This document shows, in pieces, positions 1-64,000 of a stretch of DNA of 64,000 nt. The stretch covers positions 7,877,156-7,941,155 of the forward strand of contig OY848918.1 in assembly GCA_963693285.1 (NCBI GenBank), written 5' to 3'. The translations under genes and the position numbers were made by a program. The first letter of the stretch is position 1; each line of letters opens with the position of its first letter. This DNA comes from Xestospongia muta (lineage: Eukaryota > Porifera > Demospongiae > Haplosclerida > Petrosiidae). Under the pieces are notes generated by a model. It saw nothing but the letters and a program-made list of their open reading frames with translations, was not told where the DNA came from and did not search any database.

Positions 1-69
1 GTAGCATATAGTACAATGGAACAACAACCATCACTTAATACTCCTCCTGTTTATGAGACAATGCATTAA
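1..69 (+). CDS. Receptor tail 1, last exon (partial, cut by window start)
   Basis: The window opens inside the last exon of a receptor. It reads VAYSTMEQQ, then PPVYETMH and a stop at 67-69. This matches the end of tail 1 found in many downstream genes, so its ectodomain lies to the left of the window. Both distal tyrosine motifs are kept: YSTM (YxxM, the class bound by PI3K p85 SH2 domains in animals) and YETM, where paralogs have YETI. The final residues MH differ from the usual IN. The next receptor starts 329 bp downstream on the same strand. Confidence 0.85.
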   Translation, partial: VAYSTMEQQPSLNTPPVYETMH

Positions 70-397
70 AGCAACTAGTAATATCTGCTGATTTCATTTT
101 ATGTTGTAAATTACCAGATAGATGATATTAATTTAATATTATTTATTTATCAAGAAAAATATGTCTTGCTACAAGAAATGAGTGTTCCAACTGGGGGGGG
201 CCTTGTACAACTAAAACACTAAAACACTAAATATTCTACATGTAACACCTTTCTACTGGTTCTATATAAATATACTGCTATATTATGAGAATACATATTT
301 ATACATGTGCAAATTGTATAGTTATATATGAGTCATATCTAAAATAGACTGTTCATTTTACTAACTAACTCAACCCACAATTATAACACTCCTCAAG

Positions 398-2627
398 ATG
401 GAGGAGTATACTGTAGCATTAGTTTGTATTCTCATCCATGTTATAGGTGAGTTGATGTTATAGTCATAATATTAAATGTAACATATTACTTTATAGTCAA
501 GACAGAAGCTTCAGTTACAAGTCTAGACTGTAATCATGGAGTATGTCCACAAACACAAGGAGCAGTCACTTGTACAATAACAGGCAGTCTAGCAGCTTGG
601 TATATTCCTCTATTAGATAGTAATCAGATTGCTACAGTAACAACCTCTGGACTAGTTAAATATTTTGGTAATACTGGCCATGGGTTTATTACTGCTCTTG
701 TGAGCAATAATTCTGGACTAACAACTAATTTAAGTTTTACTGCCACTACTGATAAGAATGGAACACAAGTCAGGTGTGTTGATGCTACAGATAGAAACTC
801 AATGACTTGTACTATTATGATATCAGGTATGTCACTAACAGTATCATATATAACTAACATGTACTATCATTATAAGGTCCTCCAAGTGATGCTCCTACAG
901 GACTGGGTTTTGCACCTCTCACAAACACTTCAGTCACTCTCTACTGGTCACCTCCTACTCTTCATCCTAACTGTATAGTTAACTACACTGTTGAGATCAG
1001 GACAACCAGTAATAATTCATTGATCAGTAGTCTTAGTACTGGTAGTAATATCACCAGTATTAATGTATCTACTGGTCTCTCTCAGTCAGTAGAGTATCAG
1101 TACAGAGTAGTAGGATCTGATATTATCAATAGATTAGGACTCTATAGTCAATATATTATGTTCGCTCTGGATGGTAAGAAATAAATTTTTAACCTCTTGA
1201 GTAGTGCCAATTTTTAGTTCTACAGGCTGTACCACTAATCACTTATAATATCACAAAAAATACAGAGAACTACACTATCATTCTTGATTGGGAGGTATAT
1301 ATTATATTTTATAATTTTGTTACTCTAGTTTCCTTTAGTCACCTCCTCTTTCCTCTCATCCTCCTCTCTTGTACTACAAAGTCTATCACAACATATCAGG
1401 TTCACTAACTGTTAATATAACTACTGTTACTAACATTACATTGACTGGAGTACTAGCTGGATATACCTACATTATAACAGTGGTACCAGTTAATATACTA
1501 GGAGATGGATGCCCTAATAAGACTATAGGTTATTTAAATATTATTATAAAGTGTGTTATGTTTACTTCTCATACAGTTATCATTCCTAAAGACCCAATAA
1601 TATTCAGTTTGATAGTATCTTCACAATTCTATTGTAAGAATAGACAGTATATTAGTCCTCAATTATATTATAAATTCACTAATTAGCATCATTAAGAATA
1701 TCAAGTATCTCTACAACTGTAGACAATAAGACATCCAATATTAGTAAGTGCAATATTATGTATTATACATCTAATCAATATTGTTATCATATACTGAGTA
1801 TAGTAATTACTAGTTCATTGAAGTATTTGTTAATAATTACATCTTTAGATTCAACTTGTATATACGTCATATAGAAGACTTTGTTAAATGATCAACTATC
1901 TATATTGTAGATGCTGTTTTGAGTTCTTCTACATTGCTAACGTCTTCAACTGTTTATTCAAGTAAATTAATAGTAAAGTTATAATAAAATTAATTTCCAA
2001 TATAGCTAATGAAATCCAACTGGCCTCGTTTTTAACAGGTAATAAACAAATATGTTACATAATGTACCAACTACAGGTCCAGACCATTCCTACATAGTCA
2101 ATGCTATAGGTATACTGCTTAATTGATACTTTGACTGTATATAGGATCCATGCCTATTATGACATTATTACCTTCAGTATCAGCTACAGATAGACCTCAC
2201 AGTACTAGAGGTAGGGATATATATTATTACTATTGTTGTTCACTATTTCTTTTATATCTAGTACTAAGTAATGGAGTTATTCCTGGTATTATTATTAGTA
2301 TTGTTATCTTACTAATACTAATAATAATTGTTATTTTAACTATTGTAGTAATCTTGATATATAAAGGTCAGTACTATATAGTAGTGAGTTGTACTATTTA
2401 TTACCACTGTATGTGTGTGTGTCCTACTAGTGTCCAGTACTAAACAGAGTAGAGGTGAGACTAGTCTAGTGATAAAAGAGTTCTTCTCAGAAAAAAATGA
2501 AGCCTATGGTATAACTAAAGGACCAGATCATCAGTCACCAATTGAAGTAACAGAGAATGTAGCATATAGTACAATGGAACAACAACCATCACTCAATACT
2601 CCTCCAGATTATGAGACAATAACTTAA
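398..2627 (+). CDS. Ig-FN3-FN3 receptor, family A ectodomain with tail 1 (11 exons)
   Basis: Deduced exons: 398-446, 497-826, 877-1173, 1218-1294, 1339-1633, 1687-1743, 1911-1961, 2006-2038, 2145-2210, 2262-2366, 2431-2627; total 1557 nt, 518 aa. Exon 1 is a signal peptide starting MEEYTVALVCILI. Exon 2 is an Ig-like domain with cysteines in GAVTC and TQVRC, a Trp in AAWY, and an extra LDCNHGVC cysteine pair. Exon 3 is FN3 domain 1 (LYWSPP, VEYQYRVVG). Exons 4 and 5 are FN3 domain 2, split by the only phase 0 intron. Exons 6-9 are a Ser/Thr-rich stalk, exon 10 is an uncharged TM helix ending IYKG, and exon 11 is the tail with NEAYGITK, NVAYSTME and PPDYETIT. Many N-x-S/T sites point to heavy glycosylation. 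Role inferred: a surface recognition receptor whose ligand is unknown. Confidence 0.85.
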
Positions 2628-2943
2628 GATAATAACAAAACAACTATTAATGTCTGTTAGTTTAATTTTATTTTTGAAATTAGTAAAAAGAGGATATTAA
2701 TTATTATGTAATAAGAAGAGAATTTCTAGCTACACTGTACACCTGAACAGGCCTTGTGCAATAAGTCTAATGCCTTTCTAATTTATGCTGGTTATGTATA
2801 ACTACTATACTGTTATATTATGACAATATACACATTTATACATATACAAGTCATAAACATTCATCTTATCTGTGTCATCTTTACAATATTCTAATTCATT
2901 AAACTAGCTCAACCCACAACCCACAATTATAACTCTCCTCAAG

Positions 2944-5347
2944 ATGGAGGAGTATACTGTAGCAATAGTTTGCATTCTCATCCTTGTTATAGGTGAGTTG
3001 AAGTTGTAATTGTAATAATAAATTGGTTTATAGTCAAGACAGAAGCTTCAGTAACAAGCCTAGATTGCAGTCATGGACTATGTCCACAGACACAAGGAGC
3101 AGTCACTTGTACAATAACAGGCAGTGTAGCAGCTTGGTATTCTCCTCCGTCAGATAGTACTCCCGTTGCTACAGTAAGTTCTGGACAAGTTAGTAATATT
3201 GATAATACTGGCTTTACTGCTGCTTTTGTGAGCAATATTTCTGGACTAACAACTAACTTAAGTTTTACTGCCACTACTGATAAAAATGGAACACAAGTCA
3301 GGTGTGTTGATGTGATAGATACAAACTCAATGATTTGTACTATTATGATATCAGGTATATCACTAACAGTATCATATATAACTAACATGTAATATCATTA
3401 TAAGGTCCTCCAAATGATGCTCCTACAGGACTGGGTTTTACAGCTCTCACAAACACTTCAGTCACTCTCTACTGGTCACCTCCTACTCTTCATCCTAACT
3501 GTATAGTTAACTACACTGTTGAGATCAGGACAACCAGTGATAATATATTGATCAGTAGTCTTAGTACTGGTAGTAATATCACCAGTATTAATGTATCTAC
3601 TGGTCTCTCTCAGTCAGTAGAGTATCAGTACAGAGTAGTAGGGTCTGATGCTGTTAATAGAGTAGGACCCTATAGTCAATACACTATGTTCACTCTGGAT
3701 GGTAAGAATTAAAATATTTTAGCCTTTTAAACAGTGTTACTTTAGTTCTACAGGCTGTGCCACTAATCACGTATAATATTACAAAGAATTCAGAGAACTA
3801 TATCCTTGCTGTGATTTGGGAGGTAAATATTGTTCATATCATAACTGAATCTAGTTTTCATTTAGTCTCCTCCCCTCTCCTCTCGTCCTCCTCTCTTGTA
3901 CTATAAAATCTATCACAACATATCAGGTTCACTAACTGTTAATATAACTACTGTTACTAACATTACATTGACTGGAGTATTAGCTGGATATACGTACATT
4001 ATAACAGTGGTACCAGTTAATATACTAGGAGATGGATACCCTAATAAGACTGTAGGTTATTTAAATATTATTATAAAGTGTGTTATGTTTACTTCTCATA
4101 CAGTTATCATTCCTAAAGAGCCAACAACATCTAGTTTAATAGTATCTTCTGAATTTTATAGTAAGAATAGACAGTATAATCCTCAATCATAATGTTAAAT
4201 AATTATAAATTAGTATCAGCAAGAATATCCAGTACTTCTACAACTGTAAACAATGAGACATCAAATATTAGTAAGTACAATATTATGTTGTCATACATCT
4301 AATATTGTTATCTTATGCTGACTATAGTAACTACTAGTTCAGTGATATCTTTGTCATACAACTACGTGACTTGTATTTATGTCATATAGACTATTTAATT
4401 AATTGATTAGTTACCTATTATTGTAGATACTGTTTTGAGTTCTTCTGGATTACTAATGTCTTCAACTGTTTGTTCAAGTAAATTAATAGTAAAGTTATAA
4501 TAAAATTAATTTTTATTACAGCTAACGAAAACCAACAAACCTCATGTTTAACAGGTAATATACAATATATTACATAATGTAGCATCTAATATCACTATGT
4601 CGTCTTGTTTATATTCTTTGTACAATGGACTAATGTTAGCCATTCCTCCTTCTTATCTGATTTTGTTATGACTTCTAATTAATTAGAGAAGACTATTCAT
4701 ATAATATTTCTAAAACTCCTACATCAGTCATTATTATATCTTGTTATAGAGAAGAGTATATGATGTTAAGAGGTTTGTTCAGTATTTGTTGAGGTAAAAT
4801 GTTATCTGCTAGTCTGGACCATCCCTAGATAGGTAGTCGTATATATATACTGCCTGGTTGATATATTAATTTTTTATAGGATCCATGCCTACTATCACAT
4901 CAGTACCTTCAGTATCAGCTACAGATAGACCTCTGAGTACTAGAGGTAGGGATATATATTATTACTACTATTGTTCACTATTTCTCTTATGTCTAGTACT
5001 AAGTGATGGAGTTATTGCTGGTATTATTAGTAGTATTGTTATCTTACTAGTATTAATAATGATTGTTATTTTAACTATTGTAGTAATCTTGATATATAAA
5101 GGTCAGTACTATATAGTAGTGAGTTGTACTATTACCATTGTGTCCTACAGTGTCCAGTACTAAACAAAGGAGAAGTGAGAGTAGTCCAGTGATAAAAGAG
5201 TTCTTCTCAGAAAAGAATGAAGCCTATGGTATAACTAAAGGACCAGATGATCAGTCACCAATTGAAGTAACAGAGAATGTAGCATATAGTACAATGGAAC
5301 AACAACCATCACTTAATACTCCTCCAGTTTATGAGACAATAAATTAA
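2944..5347 (+). CDS. Ig-FN3-FN3 receptor, family A ectodomain with tail 1 (11 exons)
   Basis: Tandem paralog of the gene just upstream. Deduced exons: 2944-2992, 3034-3354, 3405-3701, 3746-3822, 3866-4160, 4214-4270, 4427-4477, 4522-4554, 4880-4945, 4997-5101, 5151-5347; 1548 nt, 515 aa. The signal peptide starts MEEYTVAIVCILILVIG. The Ig domain has LDCSHGLCPQT, AAWYSPP and TQVRC; FN3 1 and FN3 2 are nearly identical to the neighbour. The tail has NEAYGITK, NVAYSTME and PPVYETIN. The intron between TM and tail is only 49 bp and lacks the GT microsatellite that other copies carry. Divergence is concentrated in the Ig loop between Trp and the last cysteine, while the TM and tail exons are nearly invariant. 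Confidence 0.85.
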
Positions 5348-6219: not shown

Positions 6220-8152
6220 ATGGTATCTTTAATTCAGTTTATTATTATTATTGCGACTCTTCAAGATTTATCATTAAGTAGGTTATGTTCATTTTAGTAT
6301 CTTTATTTGTCTTATTATTTATTATTTTATTGGGTCTTTAGGTCTTCTATACCAAAATTCTCCATCTTATTCTCCTGTATGTCCTGGAGATACTGTGGTC
6401 TTTACTTGTATCACAAACACTGGATTTGTCTCATGGGCAGATCATTCTGATGGAACTGGAGCTATAGGATACAATAGTGCTAATGCAATAGGACAACCAC
6501 CAAGACAATTAGGAATATTTAAAATTGCTCTCACTAGTGTCAATGGAATGATGTTTGTATCAACAGCTACAGTAGATAATGTAACATACAGTCAGTCATC
6601 TTCTAATATTTACTGTTCAGCAGATGCTATCAACTTCAATGACGTGGATACATTAAGTTAAGATCATAACATACTAGTAATTTATTTGTTTTCTTTGATC
6701 AGACCTAGATCAACTTGGTTCACCAATTGGATTATCAGTGCTAGTACTTGATAACAGTCAATTCCAACTCACTTGGTCTCCACCATCTGATCACTCTATC
6801 TGTATTACTAAATACACTATCAGAGCTATTAGTGATACTGTAGTAGATAAAACAGCTAATACCAGTGGAAATATGACGATATTTACAATAATGGAGTTAT
6901 TATCAGGAAATGTGTATAACTTTAGTGTTGCTGGAGTAGATAAGAGAGACATCATTGGATTATTTAGTGAACCAGTGATAATTGATTTATCAGGTAAATA
7001 AGTTGACTGTATAATTTAATTTGATATCATTTGTAGAGTTCCAGATCAAGTTATAAACCTTCAACATAATATCATTTACATTGGATCTAACAATGTTAAT
7101 ATCACTGTGTACTGGAATGTAAGTTATATTTGTTATATCAGTTATTACTGGTCTATTTTCTTTAGTCACCTTTGACCTCATTATATCATCCTAATATAAC
7201 ACATTATAATATCTATCATAATACTTCCTCTATTATATCACATGATATGACAATACTGACTTATTATGTATTGTCTAATATTCCCACCAACCACACCTAC
7301 TTTATTAGTGTATCTAGTGAGAATGTAATTGGAGAAGGAGACAACAATACCATATATGGTAATGTGTTATTTTAGACTAATGACAATAACTTTGACCATT
7401 CACATGATCAATTTCTTTATGGTTTATTTTCTTATCCAGTATATCCAACCACAACAATAAAATCAACTACTAATACAAGTAAGATATTAGTTAGCTACTG
7501 AGTGACTGCCTTAGTCATAACTGAGGTACATATTATATTATAAATTCAATTTTAGAGATACCCACTACTGTCATGACATCATATAGTGTAATAAAGACAC
7601 TCAGTATTAATAGTGAGTTCATTTATATATGAACTACTTATAATGTTTGACATTATCACTTATCAAATTAACAACAATTACAAGGTCATACATCATTTAT
7701 ATCAATTTGTATTTTATTTAGGTGCCTTGTCTTCACTAATAAGTACCACATATACAACTAGTACTATTACATCAACAATGTACACACAAAGTACATTAGT
7801 ATATAGTACTGTTATATCTACATTATCAACAGCTGATACTTCTTGTGTGATATCATGTACAGCTGGTATGTTAAGTAAATGTTATACATACAATATGTAT
7901 TTTTACTTCAACACAGTTGCTATACCACTTAGTATGTTCTTCTCCTCTGTATTAACTGCTGTTATTACTACACTTATTGTCTATCTTATTATGAGAAGGA
8001 GGAGCTACAATAAAGACACTCCACCTACTACTACTACCCAATTAGGTCCAATATATGATGATGTTAAGTTACCAGAGACCTCAGAACAGAAAGAGATTAT
8101 TGAATTACAAGGAAATACTGCATATGGATATAACAGACAGATTACAACATAG
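6220..8152 (+). CDS. Ig-FN3-FN3 receptor, family B ectodomain with tail 2 (9 exons)
   Basis: Deduced exons: 6220-6277, 6342-6656, 6703-6993, 7039-7118, 7166-7358, 7440-7478, 7556-7612, 7722-7865, 7917-8152; 1413 nt, 470 aa. Signal peptide MVSLIQFIIIIATLQDLSLS. The Ig domain has SPVCPGDTVVFTC, VSWADHSDGTGA and SSSNIYCSADA. FN3 1 contains LTWSPPSDHSICITKY, and FN3 2 is split by a phase 0 intron. A Ser/Thr stalk (exons 6-8) leads to a TM exon ending LIVYLIMRRRSY. Tail 2 contains GPIYDDVKL and NTAYGY. The end of exon 2 is odd: paralogs have ACACTAACTGTGAGAG then gtaag, but a short deletion leaves ACATTAA then gttaag, an apparent replacement donor that keeps the reading frame. Confidence 0.83.
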
Positions 8153-8325: not shown

Positions 8326-10556
8326 ATGTTGATGAGAAGATGTAGTCTTTTACTAACACTAGTGCTGAATATATTATCATGTAAAACTCAAGGTAAAGCA
8401 ACTCTATATTATGATCATTGACTATATACACTTGCTATAGTTAGTCTACAACAGTCATCTCCCTCTTACTCTCCAGTATGTTCTGGAGATAATATAGTCT
8501 TCACTTGTAATGTCACTGGTGATATACTGATATGGGACTATTATGGACAAGGAAGGGCATACTTGGCTGGTAGTTCAAGTGACACAGTTCTTGGTGGCTT
8601 TAATATAAGTCTTGTTAGTATAATGAATGGAGTGATTAGATCAGAAGCTAAACTTCAACATGTCACATCTAATGATAGTGGTAGAAATATAAATTGTACT
8701 GATACTAGTGCAGTACGTCATCAGGCTACAGTTATAGTTGCTGGTAAGTTAGTATGATATATTGTAATAAGATATTGAATTACTACATAGATATTCCCTC
8801 AAGTCCACAAAATGTTACTTTCTCTCCTCTCAATTCATCATCTCTCATATTACACTGGTCAGTACCATTAGAGAGTGGATACTGTATAGTTAACTACAGT
8901 GTTAAAGTGAACAATACTTGGCAACAACTAGTAACCACTAATACTTCAGTAGTAATAACTGGTCTATCTGTTGGCTCAATATATGAGATTATAGTAACTG
9001 GAAGGGACAACGAGGGAAGACAAGGAGTTAACAGTGACTTACTAACTATTACATGGGATGGTAAGTGATACACTAACTTACCATTATGTTATCTGATATA
9101 TCTAGTACCTCTACCAGTTATAACATTAAATGTCACTACTACTTATGAGGGATTATTAACAACTATTAACATATTCTGGGAGGTATGATACATCTATCAT
9201 TAATGTACATTAACTATTCTATAGTCAAACATTGATGCTTCAAGACCATTAGTTCTGTATTATATAATATCTCATAATATTAGTGGAGGAAATATCACTA
9301 CAATTAATATGACTAATATTGTCTTCACTTATAACACTATTATACCTGGAATATATGATATTAATGTATCTGCTGTGAATATATTGGGAGAAAGTCTACA
9401 GAGATATGCAGAAGGTATAATTCTTTAATAATTATTATATTAATTACGCAATACTTTTTAGTGAATATTGATATTAACTTTGTCAGTACTACTAAATCAA
9501 CAGGTATTTAGTATATATTAAATGAACACTTAAACTAGTAGAGTAAATGGAAAATTAATTTTCTGTTTGTTCCTCTAGAATACAGCACTATTGGTTATGC
9601 ATCATTAGTGACTTCATATAGTAAGTGATAATTACATTTCTAGTGAAATGAAGGAATTGTTAATCATTTCTAGTTGATAAATTGGGCTAATAATCTTTAT
9701 TGTTCTTTATCATAGGAATTTGAATAATTAATAATATAATTATAAATTTATAATTATTATAGTTATAATACAAACAACATTGAAAACAGTGACAAGATCT
9801 TTATCAGGTCTGTTAAAAGTATCTGTACTGATACACTGACCATCAACATGATAAATACAATATACCTCATATTACAATTATAACTATTAATTAAGTTTTC
9901 AATATCAATATAATATATAATACATATAAAAGAGAATGATCAGTTTTGGTGAGATATTTTATGTTTTCTACTACAATCATGTCAATAGATAATGTAGACC
10001 ATCCCTACATACCTGTATATATTCAGTGTTATATTGTCTGTCTAATGTGTTGATTATAGGGTCCACATCTACAATCATAGTAGTAGCTTCAGTCCTTTCT
10101 ACACCTACTGCAACAAATTCACCCACAAATAGACCTAGTAGTGGTAAGTTATATATTACTACTGTTGTTTAGTATCTCTCTTATGTCTAGTACTAAGTGA
10201 TGGAGTTATTGCTGGTATTATTATTAGTATTGTTATCTTACTAGTACTAATAATAATTGTTACTTTAACTATTGTAGTAATCTTGATATATAAAGGTCAG
10301 TACTATATTGTAGTGAGTTGTACTATTACCACTGTATGTATGTGTGTGTGTCCTACTAGTGTCCAGTACTAAACAGAGTAGAGGTGAGAGTAGTCCAGTG
10401 ATAAAAGAGTTCTTCTCAGAAAAAAATGAAGCCTATGGTATGATTAAAGGACCAAAGCATCAGTCACCAATTGAAGTAACAGAGAATGTAGCATATAGTA
10501 CAATGGAACAACAACTACCATTTAATACTCCTCCAGTTTATGAGACAATAAATTAA
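8326..10556 (+). CDS. Ig-FN3-FN3 receptor, family C ectodomain with tail 1 (11 exons)
   Basis: Deduced exons: 8326-8392, 8441-8743, 8791-9060, 9106-9182, 9225-9414, 9462-9503, 9579-9620, 9763-9807, 10060-10143, 10191-10295, 10360-10556; 1422 nt, 473 aa. Signal peptide starts MLMRRCSLLLTLVLNILSC. The Ig domain has SPVCSGDNIVFTCNVTGD, IWDYYGQ and GRNINCTD. FN3 1 has LHWSVPLESGYCIVNYSV. FN3 2 is encoded by the 77- and 190-nt exons. Four short Thr/Ser exons form the stalk. The TM exon (SDGVIAGIIISIVILL) and tail 1 (NEAYGMIK, NVAYSTME, PPVYETIN) are the cassette also used by A and B' genes. The gene lies 174 bp after the B gene and probably has its own promoter in that gap. Confidence 0.85.
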
Positions 10557-14120: not shown

Positions 14121-15966
14121 ATGGAGAAATATACACTTACTGCATCTATAATTTTTATTGTCATAATTGTAATAGGTAAGTTGATGTTATAATTATGACA
14201 TAAAATGTACTAAGATTTATTACAGATAACACAGAAGCTTCAGTTACAAGTCTAGACTGTAATCATGGAGTATGTCCACAGACACAAGGAGCACTCACTT
14301 GTACAATAAATGGCAGTTTAGCACATTGGTATTCTCCTCCATCAGATAATACTGCCATTGCTACGGTAAGTTCTTTAGGACAAGTTTTTAATGGTCCTAA
14401 TACTGGGTTTACCGCTACTCTTGTGAACGTTAACAATCCTGGACTAACAACTAATTTAAGTTTTACTGCCACTACTGATAAGAATGGAACACAAGTCAGG
14501 TGTAGTGATGCCACAGCAATAGATGGAAGTTCAATGACTTGTACTATTATGATATCAGGTATGTCACTAACAGTATCTATCATATATAACTAATATGTAC
14601 TATCATTATAAGGTTCTCCAAGTAATACTCCTACAGGACTGGGTTTTACAGCTCTCACAAACACTTCAGTCACTCTCTACTGGTCACCTCCTACTCTTCA
14701 TCCTAACTGTATAGTTAACTACACTGTTGAGATCAGGACAACCAGTGATAATATATTGATCAGTAGTCTTAGTACTAGTAGTAATATCACCAGTATTAAT
14801 GTATCTAGTGGTCTCTCTCAGTCAGTAGAGTATGAGTACAGAGTAGTAGGGTCTGATGCTATCAATAGGTTAGGACCCTATAGTCAATATATTATGTTCA
14901 CTCTGGATGGTAAGAACTAAATTATTTTAACTTTTTAAGGAATGCTAATTTTTAGTTCTACAGGCTGTGCTACTAATCACTTACAATATTACAAAAAATA
15001 CAGAGAACTACACTATTGTTGTGATTTGGGAGGTGTGTATTATTGTGTACTATAACTGGATTGAGTTTTGTATTTAGTCACCTCCTCTCTCCTCTCATCC
15101 TCCGATCTCGTACTACAAAGTCTATCACAACATATCAGGTTCACTAACTGTTAATATAACTACTGTTACTAACATTACATTGACTGGAGTACTAGCTGGA
15201 TATACCTACATTATAACAGTGGTACCAGTTAATATACTAGGAGATGGATACCCTAATAAGACTATAGGTTATTTAAATATTATTATAAAGTGTGTTATGT
15301 TTACTTCTCATACAGTTATTATTCCTAAAGAACTGATAATCACTAATATTAGTACTAGTGTTGTGACATTATCATCTGAACATTGTAGGAGTGATCAATA
15401 TAACATATAATAAAAATTACATTTTATTTAGTATTAGTAACACCAGTAAATGTGCCTAGTCCTTCTTCTACAAATGTAGTCATTATAAGTGATACATCAA
15501 CTATTAGTAAGTACTAAATAGTAATCATTTTTTTAAAATATTAAAGTGTTCATTTTAATTTTTTACTTTGACAGTGACAGTATGTTCACCAGTAATTACT
15601 GCTGTTTGTCCAGGTATGTCTTCACTACAGTAAACTACAATTACATAATTCCATTATAGCTAATGAAAAACAACAAACATCATGTTTAGCAGGTGCTTTA
15701 TAAAACAAACATGTTACATTACTGAATTACATTACTTAACAGTGAGTATACCAGTCAGTATGTTCATCACATTTCTATTAACTGCTGTACTTACTACACT
15801 TATTGTCTATCTCATTATGAGAAGGAGGAGCTACAATAAAGACACTCCACCCACTACTACTACCCAATTAGGTCCGATATATGATGATGTTAAGTTAGCA
15901 GAGACCTTAGAACAGAAGGAGATCATTGAATTACAAGGAAATACTGCTTATGGATATATTAATTAA
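14121..15966 (+). CDS. Ig-FN3-FN3 receptor, family A ectodomain with tail 2 (9 exons)
   Basis: Deduced exons: 14121-14175, 14226-14558, 14613-14909, 14956-15032, 15078-15384, 15432-15506, 15575-15613, 15660-15692, 15743-15966; 1440 nt, 479 aa. Signal peptide MEKYTLTASIIFIVIIVIG. The Ig domain (LDCNHGVCPQT, AHWYSPP, TQVRC) and both FN3 domains are A type. The stalk then changes to VPSPSSTNVVII, VCSPVITAVCPG and ANEKQQTSC. The TM and tail are type 2 (VSIPVSMF, LIVYLIMRRRSY, GPIYDDVKL, NTAYGYIN). This is the clearest ectodomain and tail swap in the window. Close A relatives at 398, 2944 and 30137 carry tail 1, so near-identical ligand-binding parts are joined to different signalling tails. Confidence 0.85.
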
Positions 15967-17055: not shown

Positions 17056-17066
17056 CATTGATTAGT

Positions 17067-17145
17067 TCTACAGGCTATATCACTAATCACTTATAATATT
17101 ACAAAGAATACAGAGAACTACACTATTGTTGTAATTTGGGAGGTG
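17067..17145 (+). pseudogene. Orphan FN3 2 half-exon upstream of a D-type start
   Basis: An isolated copy of the 77-nt first half of FN3 2 (ATCACTTATAATATTACAAA, AACTACACTATTGTTGTAAT, then TTTGGGAG|gtgtgt). It has no FN3 1 before it and no second half after it. Similar orphan copies precede both D genes, at 50428-50506 and 56780-56848, so it belongs to the D-gene upstream block and is not an active exon. Confidence 0.55.
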
Positions 17146-33540: not shown

Positions 33541-33545
33541 TACAG

Positions 33546-53600: not shown

Positions 53601-53807
53601 ATCTACTCTGATATCAAGGCATCAACTGACCCTAATAAGGTATAACATTTCATGATACATCAATGTTGCTATAGTTAAAATTCTCTTCTTTGTCACTAAC
53701 AAAAGCTCTCTACAAGAGGTGCAATGATTCAGGTTCAGTTAGGAGAACCACAACCTCCATCACATCATCCTAAACCTGATCCCAAACCAGGTTCCCAACA
53801 ACAGTAA
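50656..53807 (+). CDS. Family D receptor: Ig-FN3-FN3-TM with a long multi-ITIM-like tail (14 exons)
   Basis: Deduced exons: 50656-50707, 50755-51075, 51126-51422, 51469-51545, 51595-51955, 52029-52079, 52139-52210, 52380-52517, 52563-52602, 52652-52679, 52909-53313, 53366-53425, 53475-53639, 53706-53807; 2169 nt, 722 aa. Signal peptide MNKCAVTYLISLLLVII. The Ig domain has LDCNHGVCPQT, AAWYSLSD and TQVRCWD. The stalk has TGTSTSTSVIIPDEEPVITR. The TM is YYVIGTVGGIIVFIVIAVVL. The tail of about 260 aa has NPIYAEV, SLQYDEV, TTQYSEV, GGDYSLL, GGDYSVI, GGHYSVL, GLYSTL, GDIIYDEV and QSIIYSDI. LQYDEV, IIYDEV and IIYSDI match the ITIM consensus (I/V/L/S)xYxx(I/L/V). Polyproline runs (DEVPPPIPPYL, QPPPIPLL) suit SH3 or WW binding. 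An inhibitory or multi-SH2 docking role is inferred. Confidence 0.85.
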
Positions 53808-54349: not shown

Positions 54350-55292
54350 ATGGAGAAGTACATGTTTACTTCAATATTGATTTTTATTTTCATTCTTGTT
54401 GTAGGTAAGTGAGTTAATCTTATAATTATGAAATAAAATATACTAAGATTTACTTCAGGTAATATAAAATATAATAATAATATAATATATAATATAATAT
54501 AATATAATATAGAAGCTTTAATAACAAGTCTAGACTGCAATCATGGACTCAATACATGTATATATGTATATAGTACTCAACAACACTCACACATACAGTA
54601 ATTATAAGATGTGGTCTGTTAGGTTTACATTAACTATCATAACATATGTACTTCATTTCCTTTATAACCAACAAAATATAATATACAGTATATAAAACAC
54701 TGAAAGGTGACCTTACAATATTACTAGTACATATATACTTATATCTATATGGATGCAACAACACCCACACACACAGTAATTATAACATGTGATTGATTTT
54801 CATTACTTGTTTCCAAGTTTTTTCAGTAATACCAAAATCACATTAAGTAGTATCATATCATTAAACATCTTACCAATAGTATATAGTGACACAATGAAAT
54901 CGATACCATGCATTAATATATTGATCAGTAGTCTTAGTACTGGTAGTAATATCACCAGTATTAATGTATCTACTGGTCTCTCTCAGTCAGTAGAGTATCA
55001 GTACAGAGTAGTAGGTCTGATATTATCAATAGATTAAGGCCCTATAGTCAGTATATTGTATTCACTCTGGATGGTAAGAACTAAACTATATTATTTTTAA
55101 ACCTCTTAAGTATTACTAATTTTTTAGTTCTACAGGCTGTGCCACTGATCACTTATAATATTACAAAGAATACAGAGAACTACACTATTGTTGTGATTTG
55201 GGAGGTATATATTATTGTTTATAATAACTGAGCCTAACTTTTATTTTGTCTTCTCCACTCTCCTCTCATCCTCCTCGCTTGTACTATAAATT
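54350..55292 (+). pseudogene. Decayed family A receptor fragments
   Basis: The signal exon 54350-54404 (MEKYMFTSILIFIFILVVG) is intact. An (AATAT)n stretch and the first codons of the Ig exon follow (LITSLDCNHGLNT), and at about 54550 the sequence passes into R1. From 54916 part of FN3 1 reappears (LISSLSTGSNITSINVSTGL) with a one-base deletion (GTAGGTCTG for GTAGGGTCTG). An intact first half of FN3 2 lies at 55128-55204 and the start of its second half breaks off at about 55290. No TM or tail follows. Confidence 0.72.
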
Positions 55293-56397
55293 CAGACTGC
55301 CACACCTTTTGTTTGCAATAAATTACTTATAGAACTCTATTCCTTTTGTTGTTAGTTGTACTTTATAATGTTATAGTCTTTATTAGTTTAATGTTACAAA
55401 CAATTATTCTTGTGAGCACTTCAAATTGTAAATAATTTATGTAGAAATCAACAATAAATGGATCTAATTTTCAATTTCATGAAGGAAATATATCACAACT
55501 GGTTTATTGATTTTCTTACACAGTATATCAATAATACCAACTAGTATTACAAGAAAGATATTAATATACTATTAACTACTAAGTGATGACAGCCATAGTT
55601 ATAGCTGAGGTACATGTACATATTATGAATTAGAGATATCCACTACTGTTGTAATGTCATATAGTGTAATAAAGATACTCAATATTAATAGTAAGTTCAT
55701 TTATACATGAATTACTTATAATGTTAGATAATATCACCTCTGATAAATATGCCCATGTTTTAATTATATATTAATTATATATTACATTAAAATACAATCC
55801 ATATTAATATGACATGTTATATAGACCACATGTTATATATTATATACTATACTCCAATATAAGTTACTACTTAAAACTAGTGCTTGTATTTTCAATAAAG
55901 TAATTGTGTTATTTATATAATGTATTTTTACCCTCACCACAACACATGTGGGTGAGGGTTACAGTACTTGGTTTGTTACAGCTAGTGATTAACTGAAGTA
56001 TTTAGTTCTAAAAATATTATTGTGATTATATATCTCATTAAAAAAGAAAAGGTTGATTGTTCTTAGTTTGATGATAATGAATCATCCTTGATTTAAAAAA
56101 TACAACAAAATAATATAACAGTAAATAAATTTAAACAAATGGTTAATGTATCATTAGATTTTACAATTTTTGCAATGAATTATGCAATTTACTTTCATCT
56201 TTCCAAGTATGTACATACACATATACATGTATAGATCTAAACAACAGCCACACATAGAGTAATTATAACATGTGATTTGTTCAGTTTATATTAACTATCA
56301 TAACATTTGTACTTCATTTCCTTTATAACCAACAAAATATAATATACAGTATATAAAATAAGGAAAAGTGACTTTACAATATTACTAGTACATCTTG

Positions 56398-56444
<47 letters not shown>

Positions 56445-56775
56445 AGTTACATGTTAAATTAGTAACAGTTATTGTGACATATATTTCATGTTCATTTAAC
56501 ACCACTTTATCTTGTGACAGTATACACTGAGGAAGTAATATTTCCTTTATAACCAACAAAATGTACAGTTATGAAAACAGAGTTCTCTATATCATGATTA
56601 TATTTTTATATATGAAATAACATATGATGATAAATTATGACAATATGAGGTACCACAAGTAAGCAAGCACTGTATAGATATTTGTATCTCTGTACATAAT
56701 TAGTAACTTTAAGCATTTACATTGATCATCAAGTACGACATTATTAACATTATAAGTGACATTTACATTAGGAAA
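55293..56775. other. Intergenic with B stalk relic, R1 and (TG)n
   Basis: 55500-55700 holds relics of B-gene stalk exons and their introns, including the empty site of the 4.1-kb insertion near 55627/55628. R1 lies at about 56260-56365. A (TG)n tract occupies about 56398-56442. No complete exon is present. Confidence 0.5.
56398..56442. repeat. (TG)n microsatellite
   Basis: About 21 TG units following CTAGTACATCTTGATG, the same site that carries short GT runs in the other R1 neighbours (33274 and 48727). Confidence 0.95.
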
Positions 56776-56779
56776 CATC

Positions 56780-56848
56780 ACCTAATCACTTATAATACAC
56801 ACGAAGACAAAATACTGAGAAGTACACTATTGTCATGGTTTGGGAGGT
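56780..56848 (+). pseudogene. Orphan FN3 2 half-exon upstream of D gene 2
   Basis: A decayed copy of the 77-nt exon ending TGGTTTGGGAG|gtgtgt, at the same place relative to D gene 2 as the copies at 50428 and 17067 relative to their D-type starts. Confidence 0.5.
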
Positions 56849-57008
56849 GTGTATTATTTATTTAGTAATATAATTAGTCTACATGTTACTATATAGACAT
56901 TACACTAATAATACATAAACCCAACCCACAAAGACACCACCTCCATAAATAAGTCTATTCCAATACTATTAAGTTCATGACCCGTTTAGCTCTATCAATG
57001 CAATTAAA

Positions 57009-60000
57009 ATGGATAAGTCTACTACAACATACTTGTTTTATCTTCTCTTACTTTTCATAGGTGAGTTAATATATTACAACACAATATTTGTAGTTTATTT
57101 CTTATAGTGAAAATAGAAGCTTCAGTTACAAGTCTAGACTGTAATCATGGAGTGTGTCCACAGACACAAGGAGCAGTCACTTGTACAATAACAGACAGTA
57201 TAGTAGCTTGGTATCTTCCTCTATTAGATAATAATCAAATTGTTACAGTAACAACCTCTGGACTAGTTAAAATTGAGCGTAATACTGAGTTTATTGCTTA
57301 TCTTGTGAGCAACAATTCTGGACTAACAACTAATTTAAGTTTTACTGCCACTACTGATAAGAATGGAACACAAGTCAGGTGTGTTGATGCTATAGATAGA
57401 AACTCGATGACTTGTACTATTATGATATCAGGTATATCACTAACAGTATCATATATAACTAACATGTACTATCATTATAAGGTCCTCCAAGTGATACTCC
57501 TACGGGACTGGGTTTTACAGCTCTCACAAACACTTCAGTCACTCTCTACTGGTCACCTCCTACTCTTCATCCTAACTGTATAGTTAACTACACTGTTGAG
57601 ATCAGGACAACCAGTGATAATATATTGATCAGTAGTCTTAGTACTGGTAGTAATATTACCAGTATTAATATATCTACTGGTCTCTCTCAGTCAGTACAGT
57701 ATCAGTACAGAGTAGTAGGGTCTGATATTATCAATAGATTAGGACCCTATAGTCAATATACTATGTTCACTCTGGAAGGTAAGAATCAAATAGCTTAATA
57801 TCTTAACTAATTTGCTTTACTAGTTCTACAAGCTGTACCACTAATTACTTATACTATTACTAACAACTCAGAGGACTATGCTATTTTTATTGTTTGGGAG
57901 GTATAACATTATTAACAATCACTTGATATTATTCTAGTTTTTCATTTAGTCACCTCCTCTCTCCTCTCGTCCTCCTCTCTTGTACTACAAGGTCTATCAC
58001 AACACATCAAGTTCACTAACTGTTAATATAACTACTGTTACTAACATTACATTGACTGGAGTACTAGCTGGGTATACCTACATTATAACAGTGGTACCAG
58101 TTAATATACTAGGAGATGGATACCCTAATAAGACTATAGGTTATTTAAATATTATTATAAAATGTATTACATTTACTTCTCATATAGTTATCATTCCTAA
58201 AGAACCAGTTATTACTGGTACTAGTACTAGTACTAGTGTTATCATTCCTGATGAGGAACCAGTTATTACTAGAACTAGTGTTGTAACAACATCATCTCAA
58301 TATCATCGTAAGTGTGTTTAATATTAAAATATTATTTTAGTTTAAAACATTCAATTGTTTAGTACCAACAACATCATTAGGTGTACTTAATACATTGTCT
58401 ACAACTGTAATCATGACAAGTAATACATCAAATATTAGTAAGTGTACAATAATGTATTAAATGTTACTGTCATAATTAACTTGTGATGGAGTATAGAAAC
58501 TACAAGTACTTCAATGTCTTCATCGCAAATTACAACTCAGACAATTACTGCATCTTCAAACTTAACTAGTAGGTCTCTATATTTTGAAATGTTTGTAGAT
58601 TAATAATTGTAAATACAATCTTTTAATCATTCTAAAAATTTCTATTTCTATTTTGAAAAGCTAAAGTACTAATTTGTTATATTTACCTCTCATACAATTT
58701 TTATTCCTGGAGAAGAACCAGTTACTCCTAGTACTAGTATTAGTGCTGTTACAACGTCATCTCAATATCATAGTAAGAGTGTTTAATATAAAAATATTAT
58801 TTAAGATTTAACAATCATTTATTTAATATAATAACATCATTAGGTGTACTTAGCACATTGTCTGTAGTCATGACAAGTGATCCATCAAATATTAGTAAGT
58901 GTACAATAATGTATTAAATGTTACTGTCATAATTAACTTGTGATGGAGTATAGAAACTACAAGTACTTCAATGTCTTCATCGCAAATTACAACTCAGACA
59001 ATTACTGCATCTTCAAACTTAACTAGTAGGTCTCTATATTTTGAAATGTTTGTAGATTAATAATTGTAAATACAATCTTTTAATCATTTTTAAAAATTTC
59101 TATTTCTATTTTGAAAAGCTAAAGTACTAATTTGTTATATTTACCTCTCATACAATTTTTATTCCTGGAGAAGAACCAGTTACTCCTAGTACTAGTATTA
59201 GTGCTGTTACAACGTCATCTCAATATCATAGTAAGAGTGTTTAATATAAAAATATTATTTAAGATTTAACAATCATTTATTTAATATAATAACATCATTA
59301 GGTGTACTTAGTACATTGTCTGTAGTCATGACAAGTGATCCATCAAATATTAGTAAGTGTACAATAATGTATTAAATGTTACTGTCATAATTAACTTGTG
59401 ATGGAGTATAGAAACTACAAGTACTTCGATGTCTTTATCGCAAATTATAACTGAGACAATTACTGCATCTTCAAATTTAACTAGTAGGTTCTATGTATTT
59501 TGAAAAAAACTTCCATTGAATATTAATTGTACATATAATGAGTATATAATTTATAGTGTTTTATACATCAGATTTTATCTATAGCTTTTAAGTTCATTCC
59601 CTATAAATAATCTAACAAGTATTAATTTAATTATTATAATGAAAATAACTATTTCTACTTTGACAGTCACTACTACAACATCATCAACATCTGCTGGAAT
59701 ATATTATGTAATTGGGACTTTTGGAGGTATTATTGTTTTCATACTAATTGGTGTAGTACTAGTTCTAACTGGTTGTGTGATGCTTGGAAGACAAAATAAA
59801 AGTCAGACCTCTTATAATTTCTTGATCCTTTAAAACTCTTAATATAGATAACAAACCAAGTGGTAGTCCATTAACTGTTTCTCTGAGGTAAGCTAATACA
59901 GTCATATGTGTTAACAGTTCAATGATTATTCTTTAGAAGTATCAAAGACAATAACATAGAAGAGGTATAATATTGTTACTTACATGTACAAAGCTAAGAA

Positions 60001-61104
60001 CGGGAGTGAAGTTTCAAATCCTATACAATACCCACACAATAAATTAAATATGACATTCATTTGATATCAAAATGATCATTGAACTCACCATTAGTTGTAA
60101 GACATTCAAGTCAATCTAATGTCAGGAGTTAGTCATCATTCCTTCAAATTAGACTTTAATAGTCATATCTGGTCTTTATTAATTCCATTATAGATATCTT
60201 CAAATCCTATCTATGCAGAAGTAAAGAAGAAACCACAACCTTTATCTCTACAATACGATGAAGTTCCTCCTCCCATACCACCTTACTTAGCTGATAATGA
60301 TCAACCACCTCCTATACCACTGCTCCATAGTGAAGATGAACCTCATGTATCTCTTTATAATGGACCTCTGACAACTCAGTACTCTGAAGTCAAGAGAGAA
60401 GATATTGCACCTCATGTATTACCTCATAGTAAAGCAGCTGGAGGAGATTATTCATTATTAAAGACAGATGGTATACCTCATGTGCCACTACATAATGTGA
60501 TACCAGGAGGAGACTACTCTGTCATAAAGAGAGATGATGTACTTAATGGTTTGGCAGCTGGAAGTGACTATTCTGCCTTAAAGAGAGAAGAGAGAGAAGT
60601 TAGTTAAATATTGGTAGACAATCATAGTCTAATTTTCAAATATTATTTTTGTATTATTATAGAGCAGAGAAAATAATTCTCAGTTACAACAGACTGGTTT
60701 GTATTCAACTCTAAATAATGAAGTAAGAGATAATACAGTCAACTATATCATAATAACTTACATTATGTTAGATAAACAAACCAATTGAAGCCGGAACTGA
60801 GCCAATAGGAGCTGGAGATATAATATACACTGAACTAAGCAATGCTCCTAAGAACAAACCAATGACATCTCCTCCATCAAATTTAGAGCAGTCTGTTATC
60901 TACTCTGATATTAAGGCATCAACTGATTCTAATAAGGTATCACATTTCATGATACATCAATGTTGCTATAGTTACAATTCTCTTCTTTGTCACTAACAAA
61001 AGCTCTCTACAAGAGGTGCAATGTTTCAGGCTCAGTTAGGAGAACCACAACCTCCATCACATCATCCTAAACCTGATCCCAAACCAAGTTCCCAACAACA
61101 GTAA
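57009..61104 (+). CDS. Family D receptor with expanded stalk and multi-ITIM-like tail (18 exons)
   Basis: Deduced exons: 57009-57060, 57108-57431, 57482-57778, 57824-57900, 57950-58307, 58381-58437, 58497-58568, 58844-58894, 58954-59025, 59302-59352, 59412-59483, 59667-59801, 59848-59887, 59937-59964, 60194-60598, 60663-60722, 60772-60936, 61003-61104; 2418 nt, 805 aa. Signal peptide MDKSTTTYLFYLLLLFIG. The Ig domain has VAWYLPLLDNNQ and TQVRC. Compared with D gene 1, the pair of stalk exons (LSTLS..MTS and TSTSMSSSQITTQ) is present three times through a tandem repeat of about 460 bp. The TM is YYVIGTFGGIIVFILIGVVL. The tail has NPIYAEV, LQYDEV, TQYSEV, DYSLL, DYSVI, SDYSALK, GLYSTL, DIIYTEL and SVIYSDI plus the same polyproline runs. 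Confidence 0.85.
58381..59500 (+). repeat. Tandem repeat of about 460 bp (three copies of a stalk exon pair)
   Basis: Exon pairs start at 58381/58497, 58844/58954 and 59302/59412, a period of about 460 bp. The second and third units are almost identical, including introns. Between units lies an extra fragment (58675-58772 and 59136-59230; FTSHTIFIPGEEPVTPSTS) copied from the end of the FN3 2 exon. It has an in-frame TAA and no usable acceptor, so it is probably not spliced in. D gene 1 has a single unit. Confidence 0.85.
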
Positions 61105-62253
61105 CCTCCTCCATACATCATTTGTAAAATGAGAATGATGTGTTTTTAACTCACTGCTGACTTGTATAATGTGTCACTTTATAGTTTGTTATTTTACTTT
61201 GTCATGTTTTTCTAAGTTGAGTTATTTAGTGTTCATCATAAGACTAGTTATTAATTTATCAATATGAGGTCATATGACCTTGTATCACTATAGTAAACTT
61301 AGTACAGTATGTACACCCATTACATCTAGGCTCATATTACCATTTTCCTTATATACTACACATATCATGCACATGATAGTCACATGTCCACTATGCATGT
61401 GTTATATATAGAGACAGTTAGTCTATATTTTTATAACACGTGTACACCTGGTGTGGGTACATTAGCATTTATAATACAATTGGGAATATTTTGTCATATT
61501 ACATTATTGTAACTATATCACGTTTACATTAATGAGTGTTGTGCTGTTTTATAAGAATACTCACATATATAAACCAATACACTCTTACACATCTAATCCA
61601 TTTAACTCAACTCACAATCATACAACTTGTCAAGATGGAGAAGAACATGTTTACTTCAATATTGATTTTTATTTTCATTCTTGTTGTAGGTAAGTGAGTT
61701 AATCTTATAATTATGAAATAAAATATACTAACATTTTACTTCAGGTAATATAGAATATAATAATAATATAATATATAATAAAATATAATATAGAAGCTTT
61801 AGTAGCAAGTACTAGTCTAGACTGCAATCATGGACTCAATACATGTACGTTTATATAGTACTCAACAAACTCACACATTAAGTAATTATAACATGTGGTC
61901 AGTTCAGTTTACATTAACTATCATAACATATGTACTTCATTTCCTTTATAACCAACAAAATATAATATACAGTATATAAAACACTGAAAGGTGACCTTAC
62001 AATATTACTAGTACATATATATTTATACCTGTATCTATATGGATGCAACAACACCCACACACACAATAATTATAACATGTGATTGATTTTCATTACTTGC
62101 TTCCAAATTTTTTCAGTAACACCTAAATCATGTTAAGTATTATCATATTATTAAGCATCTTAATCACAACATATAGTGAAACACTGGAAATGATACCATG
62201 CATTAATGACCAAGAGTTAATTGTCCTCAACCCACATAACCTCCATTAATAAG
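61105..62253. other. D gene 2 3' flank with family A relic and R1
   Basis: The flank matches 53808-54800. It includes a relic A signal exon (61635-61689, MEKNMFTSILIFIFILVVG), a few Ig codons ending at CATGGACTCAATACATGT (about 61850) and an R1 copy (about 61880-61982). The A relic has the same truncation point as the one at 54350, so it broke before the D block was duplicated. Confidence 0.6.
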
Positions 62254-63395
62254 TGTAGAAGCTTCAATTACAAGTCTAGACTGTAATCATAGAATATGTC
62301 CACAGACACAATGAGCAGTCACTTGTACAATAATAGGCAGTTTAGCAGCTTGGTTTTCTCTATCAGATAATAGTAATCACATTACTACAGTGACAACCCC
62401 TGGACGAGTTAATAATGTTGCTAATACTGGGTTTACTGCTGCTCTTGTGAGTATTAACAATTCTGGACTAACAACTAGTTTAAGTTTTACTGCCACTACT
62501 GATAAAAATGGAACATAAGTCAGGTGTAGTGATGTAACAGATACAAACTCAATGACTTGTACTATTATGATATCAGGTATGTCACTAACAGTATCATATA
62601 TAACTAACATGTACTATCATTATAAGGTCCTCCAAGTGATACTACTACAGGGCTGGTTTTACAGCTCTCACAAACACTTCAGTCACTCTCTACTGGTCAC
62701 CTCCTACTCTTCTTCCTAACTGTATAGTTAACTACACTGTTGAGATCAGGACAACCAGTGATAATATATTGATCAGTAGTCTTAGTACTGGTAGTAATAT
62801 TACCAATATTAATGTATCTACTTGTCTCTCTCAGTCAGTAGAGTATCAGTACAGAGTAGTAGGGTCTGATATTATCAATAGATTAGGACCTTATAGTCTA
62901 TATATTATGTTCACTCTGGATGGTAAGAATTAAATTATTTTAACCTTTTAAGGAGTGCTAATTTTTAGTTCTACAGGCTGTACCACTAATAACTTATAAT
63001 ATTACAAAGAATACAGAGAACTACACTATTGTTGTGATTTGGGAGGTGTGTATTATTGTGTACAATAACTGGATTGAGTTTTACAATTAGTCACCTCCTC
63101 TCTCCTCTTGTCCTCCTCTCTTGTACTACAAACTTGATCATAATATATCATGTTCACTAACTGTTAATATAACTACTGTTACTAACATTACATTGACTGG
63201 AGTACTAGCTGGATATACCTACATTATAACAGTGGTACCAGTTAATATACTAGGAGATGGATACCCTAATAAGACTATAGGTTATTTAAATATTATTATA
63301 AAGTTTATTCATGTTTACTTCTCATAGAGTTATTATTCCTAAAGAACTGATATCTACTAATACTAGTGTTGTGACATTATCATCTGAACATTGTA
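62254..63395 (+). pseudogene. Family A receptor pseudogene (ectodomain only)
   Basis: Ig exon about 62254-62576, FN3 1 62627-62922, FN3 2 halves 62969-63045 and 63091 to about 63395. There is no signal exon. Lesions: TGA at 62312-62314 (CAATGAGCA where paralogs have CAAGGAGCA), TAA at 62516-62518 (GGAACATAAGTC for GGAACACAAGTC), a one-base deletion in FN3 1 (GGGCTGGTTTTAC), and an insertion in FN3 2 that gives a stop at 63325-63327. It runs into an R1 stub and then the inversion breakpoint at about 63493. Confidence 0.85.
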
Positions 63396-63492
63396 GGACT
63401 GATGTACATGTACATGTATATAATACTCAACAACACCCACACGTAGAGTAATTATAATATGTGGTCTAATGACTTTATAATATTAATATATG

Positions 63493-63993
63493 TCTCACCA
63501 CTACTCTGTTTAGTACTGGACACTAGTAGGACACACACACATATACAGTGGTAATAGTACAACTCACTACTATATAGTACTGACCTTTATATATCAAGAT
63601 TACTACAATAGTTAAGATAACAATTATTATTAGTACTAGTAAGATAACAATACTAATAATAATACCAGCAATAAATTCATCACTTAATACTAGACATAAG
63701 AGAGATACTAAACAACAGTAGTAATATACATATATATCTTACCACTACAAGGTTCAGATATTGAAGGTACCACTGTGGTAGTAGGGGTGGTTCCTATTAT
63801 AGGTAGAAAGTAAAACATGGCCTATATATATAGGGATGACCCAGATTGTTGTATCATTGTCACAAAATAGAGAAAATTTAATTATATAAACTAAAATGAC
63901 TATAGAAATTGTTTAATATTGATATTATCATTAAATAAGCTATTTACCTATTGATACATAATCAAATATGTTGCAGTACCATTTGTTATCCAT
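63493..63993 (-). pseudogene. Inverted minimal receptor: D-like exon 1, stalk, TM, truncated tail 1
   Basis: On the minus strand: exon 63993-63948 (MDNKWYCNIFDYVSIG), stalk exon 63793-63743 (GTTPTTTVVPSISEPCSG), TM exon 63689-63585 (ending IYKG) and a tail exon from 63522 (VSSTKQSSGET) that crosses an inversion breakpoint near 63493. Beyond it the frame continues a few codons (YINIIKSLDHIL) and stops. All joins are phase 1. It has the same architecture as the ectodomain-less gene at 17316-18046, but with the stalk and flanking intron of B' genes. It is the only receptor module on the minus strand. Confidence 0.6.
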
Positions 63994-64000
63994 TTTGACT

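Follow-up and report, generated by a model that had tools for sequence, protein, structure and literature searches.

The window analysed here is a stretch of 64,000 nucleotides from the sponge Xestospongia muta (contig OY848918.1, here called C2, positions 7877156-7941155), and it is one slice of an array of receptor genes in which related ectodomains are joined to exchangeable signalling tails. Seventeen loci in the window could be anchored on a tail. Twelve of these had a continuous reading frame between ATG and stop codon, without frameshifts, and all their introns were bounded by GT-AG; the remaining five models were broken, and further fragments without a tail were present (Table 1). An earlier note on this DNA had described a tandem cluster of Ig/FN3 receptors with interchangeable tails. 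This was confirmed, and the cluster is larger than noted, spanning about 1.4 Mb (about C2:7.37-8.75 Mb). The count of about ten intact and about ten broken genes was revised to 12 intact genes, five broken tail-bearing copies and several fragments, and the number of three tails (A, B and C) was right for the window.

Gene models were first drawn by eye; a spliced protein-to-DNA aligner demanding GT-AG introns was then applied. The order of exons was signal, Ig, FN3, a second FN3 split over two exons by a phase-0 intron, short Ser/Thr-rich stalk exons, transmembrane (TM) and tail. The 12 intact genes contained 116 introns with a median of 53 nt (93 shorter than 100 nt), most of them in phase 1 (90, against 22 in phase 0 and 4 in phase 2). 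The choice of stalk exons is uncertain for some models, and the Ser/Thr-rich stalk exons are where gene models can differ in length. Among the coding lengths given earlier, 1557, 1413, 1422 and 2169 nt were exact and 1476 and 1440 nt were not reproduced, while 2418 nt lies within 3 nt of 2421 nt, i.e., the 2175-nt model plus two extra 51+72-nt stalk exon pairs. The other models measured 1548, 1512, 1488, 1416, 1419, 1515 and 1575 nt. In the second tail C gene of the window the 458-bp repeat triplicates an in-frame two-exon (51+72 nt) stalk module; judged from the sequence, stalk length can thus change with the repeat number of this unit. The 5' end of the same gene is less certain, its signal exon (54350-54404) being separated from the Ig exon by a first intron of 2.7 kb, inside which E1 FN3 fragments (54915-55072) were found.

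Table 1. Receptor genes, incomplete copies and a tandem repeat in the window (positions counted from its first nucleotide; E1-E3, ectodomain types)
Feature	Position	Strand	Basis
3' end of neighbouring receptor gene, tail A, mostly outside the window	1..66	+	alignment
Intact gene, E1, tail A, 11 exons, 1557 nt	398..2627	+	spliced model; fn3
Intact gene, E1, tail A; its Ig exon is the sequence folded for E1	2944..5347	+	spliced model
Intact gene, E2, tail B, 1413 nt	6220..8152	+	spliced model; fn3
Intact gene, E3, tail A, 1422 nt	8326..10556	+	spliced model; fn3
Intact gene, E2 Ig and FN3-1 with different FN3-2, tail A; stalk approximate	11405..13825	+	spliced model
Intact mosaic gene, E1, tail B; stalk approximate	14121..15966	+	spliced model; blastn
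Broken copy without Ig or first FN3: remnant, stalk, TM, tail A	16011..18046	+	alignment
Intact gene, E2, tail B	18701..20707	+	spliced model
Broken E3 copy: Ig exon, part of FN3-1, no tail	20924..21501	+	alignment
Broken E2-tail B copy: one in-frame stop, two frameshifts	22000..23947	+	spliced model
Intact gene, E3, tail A	24127..26336	+	spliced model
Intact gene, E2 with different FN3-2, tail A; stalk approximate	27185..29610	+	spliced model
Intact gene, E1, tail A	30137..32596	+	spliced model
Broken copy: stalk and tail B, frameshift	32831..33964	+	alignment
Fragment, E2 first-FN3 exon	34451..34528	+	alignment
Tail A module (stalk, TM, tail) without ectodomain	42656..43137	+	alignment
Broken E1 copy: signal exon and start of Ig exon, stop at 43863	43717..43951	+	alignment
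Truncated tail B module; tail B match 48984-49091	48734..49092	+	alignment
Intact gene, E1, tail C, 14 exons, 2169 nt	50656..53807	+	spliced model; fn3
Intact gene, E1, tail C	54350..61104	+	spliced model
458-bp tandem repeat, 2.7 copies, 94% matches	58267..59505	+	repeat search
E1 copy with two stops in Ig exon, running to the window end	62252..64000	+	alignment

The genome scanned comprised 158,027,690 bp in 28 contigs (C2, 22,145,118 bp; C3, 13,573,638 bp; C5, 8,747,271 bp). The genome note of X. muta gives 15 chromosomes, 158.52 Mb in total and 298 scaffolds, with chromosomes 2, 3 and 5 of 22.15, 13.58 and 8.75 Mb and a chromosomal G+C content of 31.5-34% (PMC12398682); across the window G+C was 0.28-0.34. 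At least 105 matches covered 95% or more of the E1 Ig exon, at least 103 of them in C2:7.37-8.69 Mb; these are lower bounds, taken from the best 150 of 247 candidates and recounted on 115 of those 150, with 35 judged clearly partial omitted. Among the at least 103 near-full-length exons of the array, 97 were stop-free and three were only 36-43% identical to the query. All but one of the tail B matches (best 150 of 214 candidates scored) fell in C2:7.37-8.74 Mb, as did all but one of the 95 genome-wide tail C matches in C2:7.47-8.75 Mb. Tail A gave 112 matches and, besides the array, had satellites on C1, C4, C7, C11, C12 and elsewhere on C2. Matches at C2:8.225-8.235 and 8.279-8.289 Mb recurred in blocks at a constant offset of 54,398 bp with identical scores, and those at 7.685, 7.723 and 7.761 Mb at an offset of about 38.1-38.2 kb with equal or close scores; the constant-offset blocks may be recent segmental duplications or uncollapsed haplotypes.

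Gene-level modelling, selection analyses and trees covered 260 kb of the array, window included. Event-free models with an N-terminus numbered 28 among 64 tail-anchored ones and comprised E1 with tail A (5), B (6) and C (6), E2 with tail A (3) and B (2), and E3 with tail A (6), although three of the last belong to additional ectodomain types, with 39-45% identity in the first FN3. Further types on tail A were also seen just outside the window (C2:7804434-7809831 and 7871712-7877221), 37-41% identical to the E2/E3 Ig exons. For the window itself, the four ectodomain families claimed earlier hold if the genes at 11405 and 27185, with E2 Ig and FN3-1 and a different FN3-2, are taken as a family of their own; Ig type alone distinguishes three.

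Ectodomains and tails did not occur as fixed pairs: E1 occurred with tails A, B and C, and E2 with A and B. In the tree of 25 E1 Ig exons, 24 of which had an assigned tail (A 5, B 9, C 10), 10 tail changes were required, against a minimum of 2 and a mean of 11.1 after shuffling (as low in 60 of 200 shuffles), and each tail as one clade was rejected (approximately unbiased test, p-AU 5e-43, 2.5e-35 and 3.6e-4). The first-FN3 tree also required 10 changes, one clade being rejected for B and C and not for A (p 0.056). When the 17 event-free E1 genes alone were used (A 5, B 6, C 6), seven changes were found against 8.4 after shuffling (as low in 37 of 200). The second-FN3 tree of 19 sequences had no starred branch (one-clade p 0.116 for A, 0.031 for B and 0.040 for C) and was not relied on. 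The ectodomain at 8075446, joined to tail C, and that at 8096452, joined to tail B, were close relatives (99/97). In gene 14121 the main blastn match to E1-tail A genes stopped at 15340, a weak match of 71-73 nt followed at 15649-15719, and from 15739 on the sequence matched E2-tail B genes at 90-91%; this switch places the join in the stalk region, where phase-1 introns preserve the frame. Tail labels are unclustered on the ectodomain trees, and the presence of related ectodomains on interchangeable signalling tails is supported.

Pfam fn3 was above the cut-off in all four representative proteins (42.9-51.6 bits against 25); three of these showed two fn3 stretches each, the E3 gene a single one. 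The full E1-tail C gene, used as query in a protein search, had a single match, which bears FN3 (P0001, E 2.3e-6). The distal domain of E1 (gene at 2944) was modelled by AlphaFold as a nine-strand V-set-like fold (predicted local distance difference test, pLDDT, 80.5), a V-type sandwich with C' and C'' strands and a core of B-Cys, C-Trp and F-Cys. On this model the E1 distal domain is a predicted V-set-like Ig domain. Selection was estimated from exons that were stop-free with at least 95% query coverage and at least 60% identity (25 E1 Ig, 25 first FN3 and 19 second FN3). The mean pairwise ratio of nonsynonymous to synonymous change (dN/dS) was 1.09, 0.55 and 0.33, with mean dS of 0.139, 0.110 and 0.103, and dN exceeded dS in 181 of 300, 39 of 300 and 9 of 171 pairs, respectively. 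All 25 E1 Ig exons differed from each other (mean dN 0.152). Within this exon the ratio was 1.81 (column bootstrap 1.17-3.04) for the BC, C-C'-C''-D and FG segments pooled, compared with 0.49 (0.31-0.80) for the framework; taken alone, BC gave 3.88 and C-C'-C''-D 2.10. The fit of the segments to the model is rough: three residues of strand C fall within BC, and the C-C'-C''-D segment takes in C', C'' and most of D. Diversifying change was found to be concentrated in the parts of the V-set-like E1 domain that resemble complementarity-determining regions (CDR), one of two signatures expected of a recognition receptor that were seen here; the other is a tail with many SH2-type Tyr motifs, along with an SHP-2-like phosphatase in the genome.

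The tails differ in their tyrosine motifs. Both window copies of tail C contain 11 Tyr and nine YxxPhi, against a shuffled mean of about 2.1, and nine was reached by none of 2000 shuffles. They also match the pattern of the immunoreceptor tyrosine-based inhibitory motif (ITIM) three and four times (reached by 25 and 4 of 2000 shuffles) and that of the switch motif (ITSM) once each (79 and 87 of 2000). In tail A there is a single YxxM, a number that 85 of 2000 shuffles also attained. By eye, its three Tyr are kept in 16 of 17, 17 of 17 and 17 of 17 copies, and most Tyr of the tail C exons are kept as well. Tail B gave a dN/dS of 0.39 (n=4). Possible partners of such motifs are encoded elsewhere in the genome: C5 carries an intronless open reading frame (ORF) with two SH2 domains and a tyrosine phosphatase (C5:8740601-8742900, L022), whose best PDB match is PTPN11/SHP-2 (E 1.4e-196), and C3 three tandem intronless SH2-SH2-phosphatase ORFs, also SHP-2-like (C3:11955801-11962200, L021). 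A fifth, split set of SH2/phosphatase matches lies on C8. The phosphatase signature is HCSxGxGRTG; two of the three C3 ORFs deviate from it (QCSNGVGRTG and HCSSGIGRSA), and their activity may be altered. Among the matches listed, matches to tyrosine-phosphatase domains formed large arrays at C2:9.41-9.70, C11:3.76-3.99, C12:0.98-1.34 and C7:0.32-0.72 Mb, the C2 one being less than 1 Mb beyond the receptor array, and open frames with SH2 were clustered at C8:6.53-6.58 Mb (8 strong matches) and C6:0.12-0.24 Mb (6).

Related copies were found on other contigs. The Ig alignment gave 207 matches in 5.8 billion predicted proteins, and the contigs were tallied for 120 of them: 26 on the window's own contig of 1,554,166 bp, 44, 17, 7 and 5 on contigs of 1,454,069, 841,867, 1,600,931 and 726,659 bp, with the remaining 21 on smaller contigs. 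The 44 Ig exons of the 1,454,069-bp contig matched the 260 kb at 70-97%. Two of them were compared with the whole genome and the other 42 with the 260 kb only; the best matches of the two were 95% and 87%, so these two Ig exons are not in this assembly. This fits the presence of related arrays, holding different copies, in a second haplotype, in another individual or in a relative or other species.

Other features of the window include a 274-aa open frame on the minus strand (45779-46603) with several hydrophobic stretches and no Pfam match. It was found at 100% on the window's contig, 85% on a 125-kb contig and 72% on a 6.7-kb contig, and none was reported on the 1,454,069-bp contig, the matches showing only the longest contig per cluster. 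It is flanked by a 0.65-kb repeat pair of 88% identity (44171-44816 and 47414-48093), and the whole is possibly a mobile element. An Rfam scan of the sequence at gathering thresholds gave no match.

The array is probably a variable, paired-receptor-like array for non-self recognition, made of type I receptors with exchangeable tails. Each product would be a single-pass type I receptor in which one V-set-like Ig and two FN3 domains stand on a stalk rich in Ser/Thr, followed by one TM helix and by tail A, B or C. Ligands would be bound by the variable Ig tip, whose diversity would stem from duplication, from selection and from exchange among the copies. Through recombination at or near the stalk introns, any E1 ectodomain lineage would become joined to any tail, and one binding specificity could thereby be read as different signals. 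Tail C, with its nine YxxPhi including ITIM/ITSM-like ones, would be inhibitory and recruit SHP-type phosphatases; tail A (YxxM and two YxxPhi) and the short tail B would signal differently and could be activating or co-stimulatory. Expression, ligand, direction of signalling and cell type are parts of this explanation that we infer.

Several observations weigh against such a reading. No Pfam Ig family was above cut-off in the four full representative proteins; Ig_3 reached at best E 0.013, below cut-off, in 3 of 12 Ig exons, and the Ig alignment profile had no significant match among PDB sequences (best E 0.15). Of the Ig/FN3 profile hits anticipated in the earlier note, those to fn3 were thus obtained and those to Ig were not, and the Ig assignment rests on structure prediction because the Pfam and PDB searches gave nothing significant. 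The E2/E3 Ig alignment folded poorly (pLDDT 60.2) and its model had no Foldseek match at E <= 0.001; V-set is therefore claimed for E1 only. As for selection, dN/dS of the whole E1 Ig exon did not exceed 1 significantly (0.77-1.55), that of the FG (CDR3-like) segment by itself was 0.78, and E2 and E3 Ig exons showed no excess (0.64, n=7, and 0.63, n=4). Moreover, the CDR-like segments were named by Cys/Trp landmarks after the alignment had been inspected, the paralogue pairs are non-independent, and gene conversion can distort pairwise dN/dS. In the tails, the two YxxPhi of tail A were reached by 136 of 2000 shuffles, the motifs of tail B were not above chance, and the LQYDEV site of exon C11 had its Tyr in only three of seven copies. 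Tails A and C were not strongly constrained (dN/dS 0.81 for A, 0.73 for exon C11 and 1.56 for C13). No ITAM (the activating counterpart of ITIM) was found in the tested A, B and C tails and no charged residue, by eye, in the TM helices of 12 models, so that an activating arm of the system can be proposed only tentatively.

What the receptors might recognize is divided between two possibilities of about equal weight, conspecific cells and microbes, or both. It is quite possible that the array is an allorecognition (histocompatibility) complex, in which the V-set-like tips would determine whether conspecific cells fuse or are rejected, by binding to allelic partners on those cells, perhaps in homophilic fashion. 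The variable tip with selection on its BC and C-C'-C''-D segments, the linkage of many genes in one array, and the occurrence on other large contigs of related Ig exons that this assembly lacks, as far as they were tested, all agree with it. Parallels exist in Botryllus FcoR and in Hydractinia candidates, and the variation of stalk exons resembles the splicing described for exons located between the TM and the Ig region (PMC12065747). However, about 100 copies per haplotype exceeds the need of a single determinant, and the other contigs may belong to another species. A repertoire for microbe or symbiont recognition, with receptors that would bind the variable surfaces of microbes and control phagocytic uptake by sponge cells, could equally be what the array encodes: copy number, broken copies and turnover are like those of immune receptor arrays, the tip is under selection, and an inhibitory-type tail is accompanied by an SHP-2-like partner gene, but allorecognition predicts this pattern equally well. 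The proposal of the earlier note that the locus is an allorecognition or immune receptor complex is thus supported in part, by the ectodomain-tail interchange, the CDR-like diversification and the SH2-type Tyr motifs of tail C together with an SHP-2-like gene, evidence that favours neither of the two.

It is unlikely that these are ordinary developmental cell-adhesion receptors amplified in tandem, their variation arising from relaxed constraint and gene conversion. The Ig-FN3 architecture is common in adhesion molecules, the dN/dS of tails A and C is fairly high, and broken copies are frequent. However, relaxed constraint alone was rejected, since framework and loop segments differed as widely as they did inside one exon, and the scrambling of tails also speaks against it. 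Very improbable is an assembly or haplotype artefact, with uncollapsed alleles inflating the copy number, as the identical-score blocks at the 54,398-bp offset and the 28 haplotypic duplications removed in curation could suggest, given that all the compared E1 Ig exons differ and that the doubt about contig order flagged in the genome note (chromosome 2, 16.1-18.9 Mb) lies outside the array (PMC12398682).

If the array is a paired-receptor-like system for non-self recognition, it would work like Alr, FcoR and vertebrate paired receptors, by analogy; membership in these families is not claimed. KIR, LILR, chicken CHIR and fish NITR are clustered vertebrate paired receptors, and the ectodomains of KIR and LILR are C2-type Ig domains. 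The likeness lies in related ectodomains on different tails, fast birth and death, and inhibitory-type motifs with SHP phosphatases; in contrast to them, no charged TM residue was seen and no ITAM found in the sponge array, and E1 is a V-set-like model followed by fn3 instead of the C2-set of KIR and LILR. The Alr family of Hydractinia has 41 members with V-set and I-set domains (PMC11999971, PMC12065747), candidate allorecognition genes of that genus carry ITIM/ITAM-type motifs (PMC12065747), and Botryllus FcoR has 53 loci with Ig domains and YxxI/L/V tails (PMC12065747). Alr is, like the sponge array, an invertebrate complex of Ig superfamily receptors with many paralogues and, on candidates, ITIM/ITAM-type motifs; compared by description only, the sponge genes differ in two FN3 after the Ig, three exchanged tails and about 100 near-full-length E1-type Ig exons. 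FcoR, as far as it is described there, shares with the array a V-type Ig tip, a TM, a long tail with ITIM and YxxI/L/V, variation in gene content and variable exons between Ig region and TM. It alone has sushi and C2-Ig domains, hemITAM and, at many loci, SH2 domains, whereas the sponge array has FN3 and, in the four genes scanned, none of the FcoR-specific domains. Among sponges, Ig-like proteins are mentioned for Geodia cydonium, a receptor tyrosine kinase and an adhesion molecule (PMC12018476, PMC11999971), and aggregation factors are mentioned in relation to adhesion or recognition (PMC11999971). Like the array, these are sponge molecules tied to adhesion or recognition, and some are Ig-like. 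Ig-kinase receptors were rejected as a description of the array, no kinase domain being found in the four representatives, which cover tails A, B and C; in this the array is also unlike the Geodia kinase. Unlike the aggregation factors, which are extracellular proteoglycans, its products are predicted TM receptors, in a large array and with exchangeable tails.

To our knowledge, cell-surface non-self recognition in sponges and the molecular basis of their allorecognition are a long-standing open question. Sponge-directed searches of open-access literature gave no description of such an array, judged by titles and the beginnings of abstracts. It is possible, if doubtful, that the 1.4-Mb array is the sponge counterpart of a histocompatibility or natural killer (NK) receptor complex, with a V-set-like repertoire specific to each haplotype, in which selection diversifies the loops and recombination around stalk introns repeatedly connects the specificities to inhibitory (multi-ITIM) or other tails. 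An alternate haplotype (GCA_963693275.1) and RNA-seq (ERR13669939; PMC12398682) have been deposited for the source genome, and the idea is directly testable. With about 100 copies of a receptor part whose outer end is variable, somewhat like that of an antibody, and whose inner signalling end is exchanged among three types, the array is a candidate for the discrimination of self and other in one of the oldest animal lineages. If this is right, sponges own a paired-receptor-like system of V-set-like and FN3 domains, comparable to yet unlike those of cnidarians, tunicates and vertebrates; if the array is also the counterpart of a histocompatibility or NK receptor complex, variable recognition paired with exchangeable signalling and SHP-type phosphatases would have arisen, or already existed, near the base of the animals.

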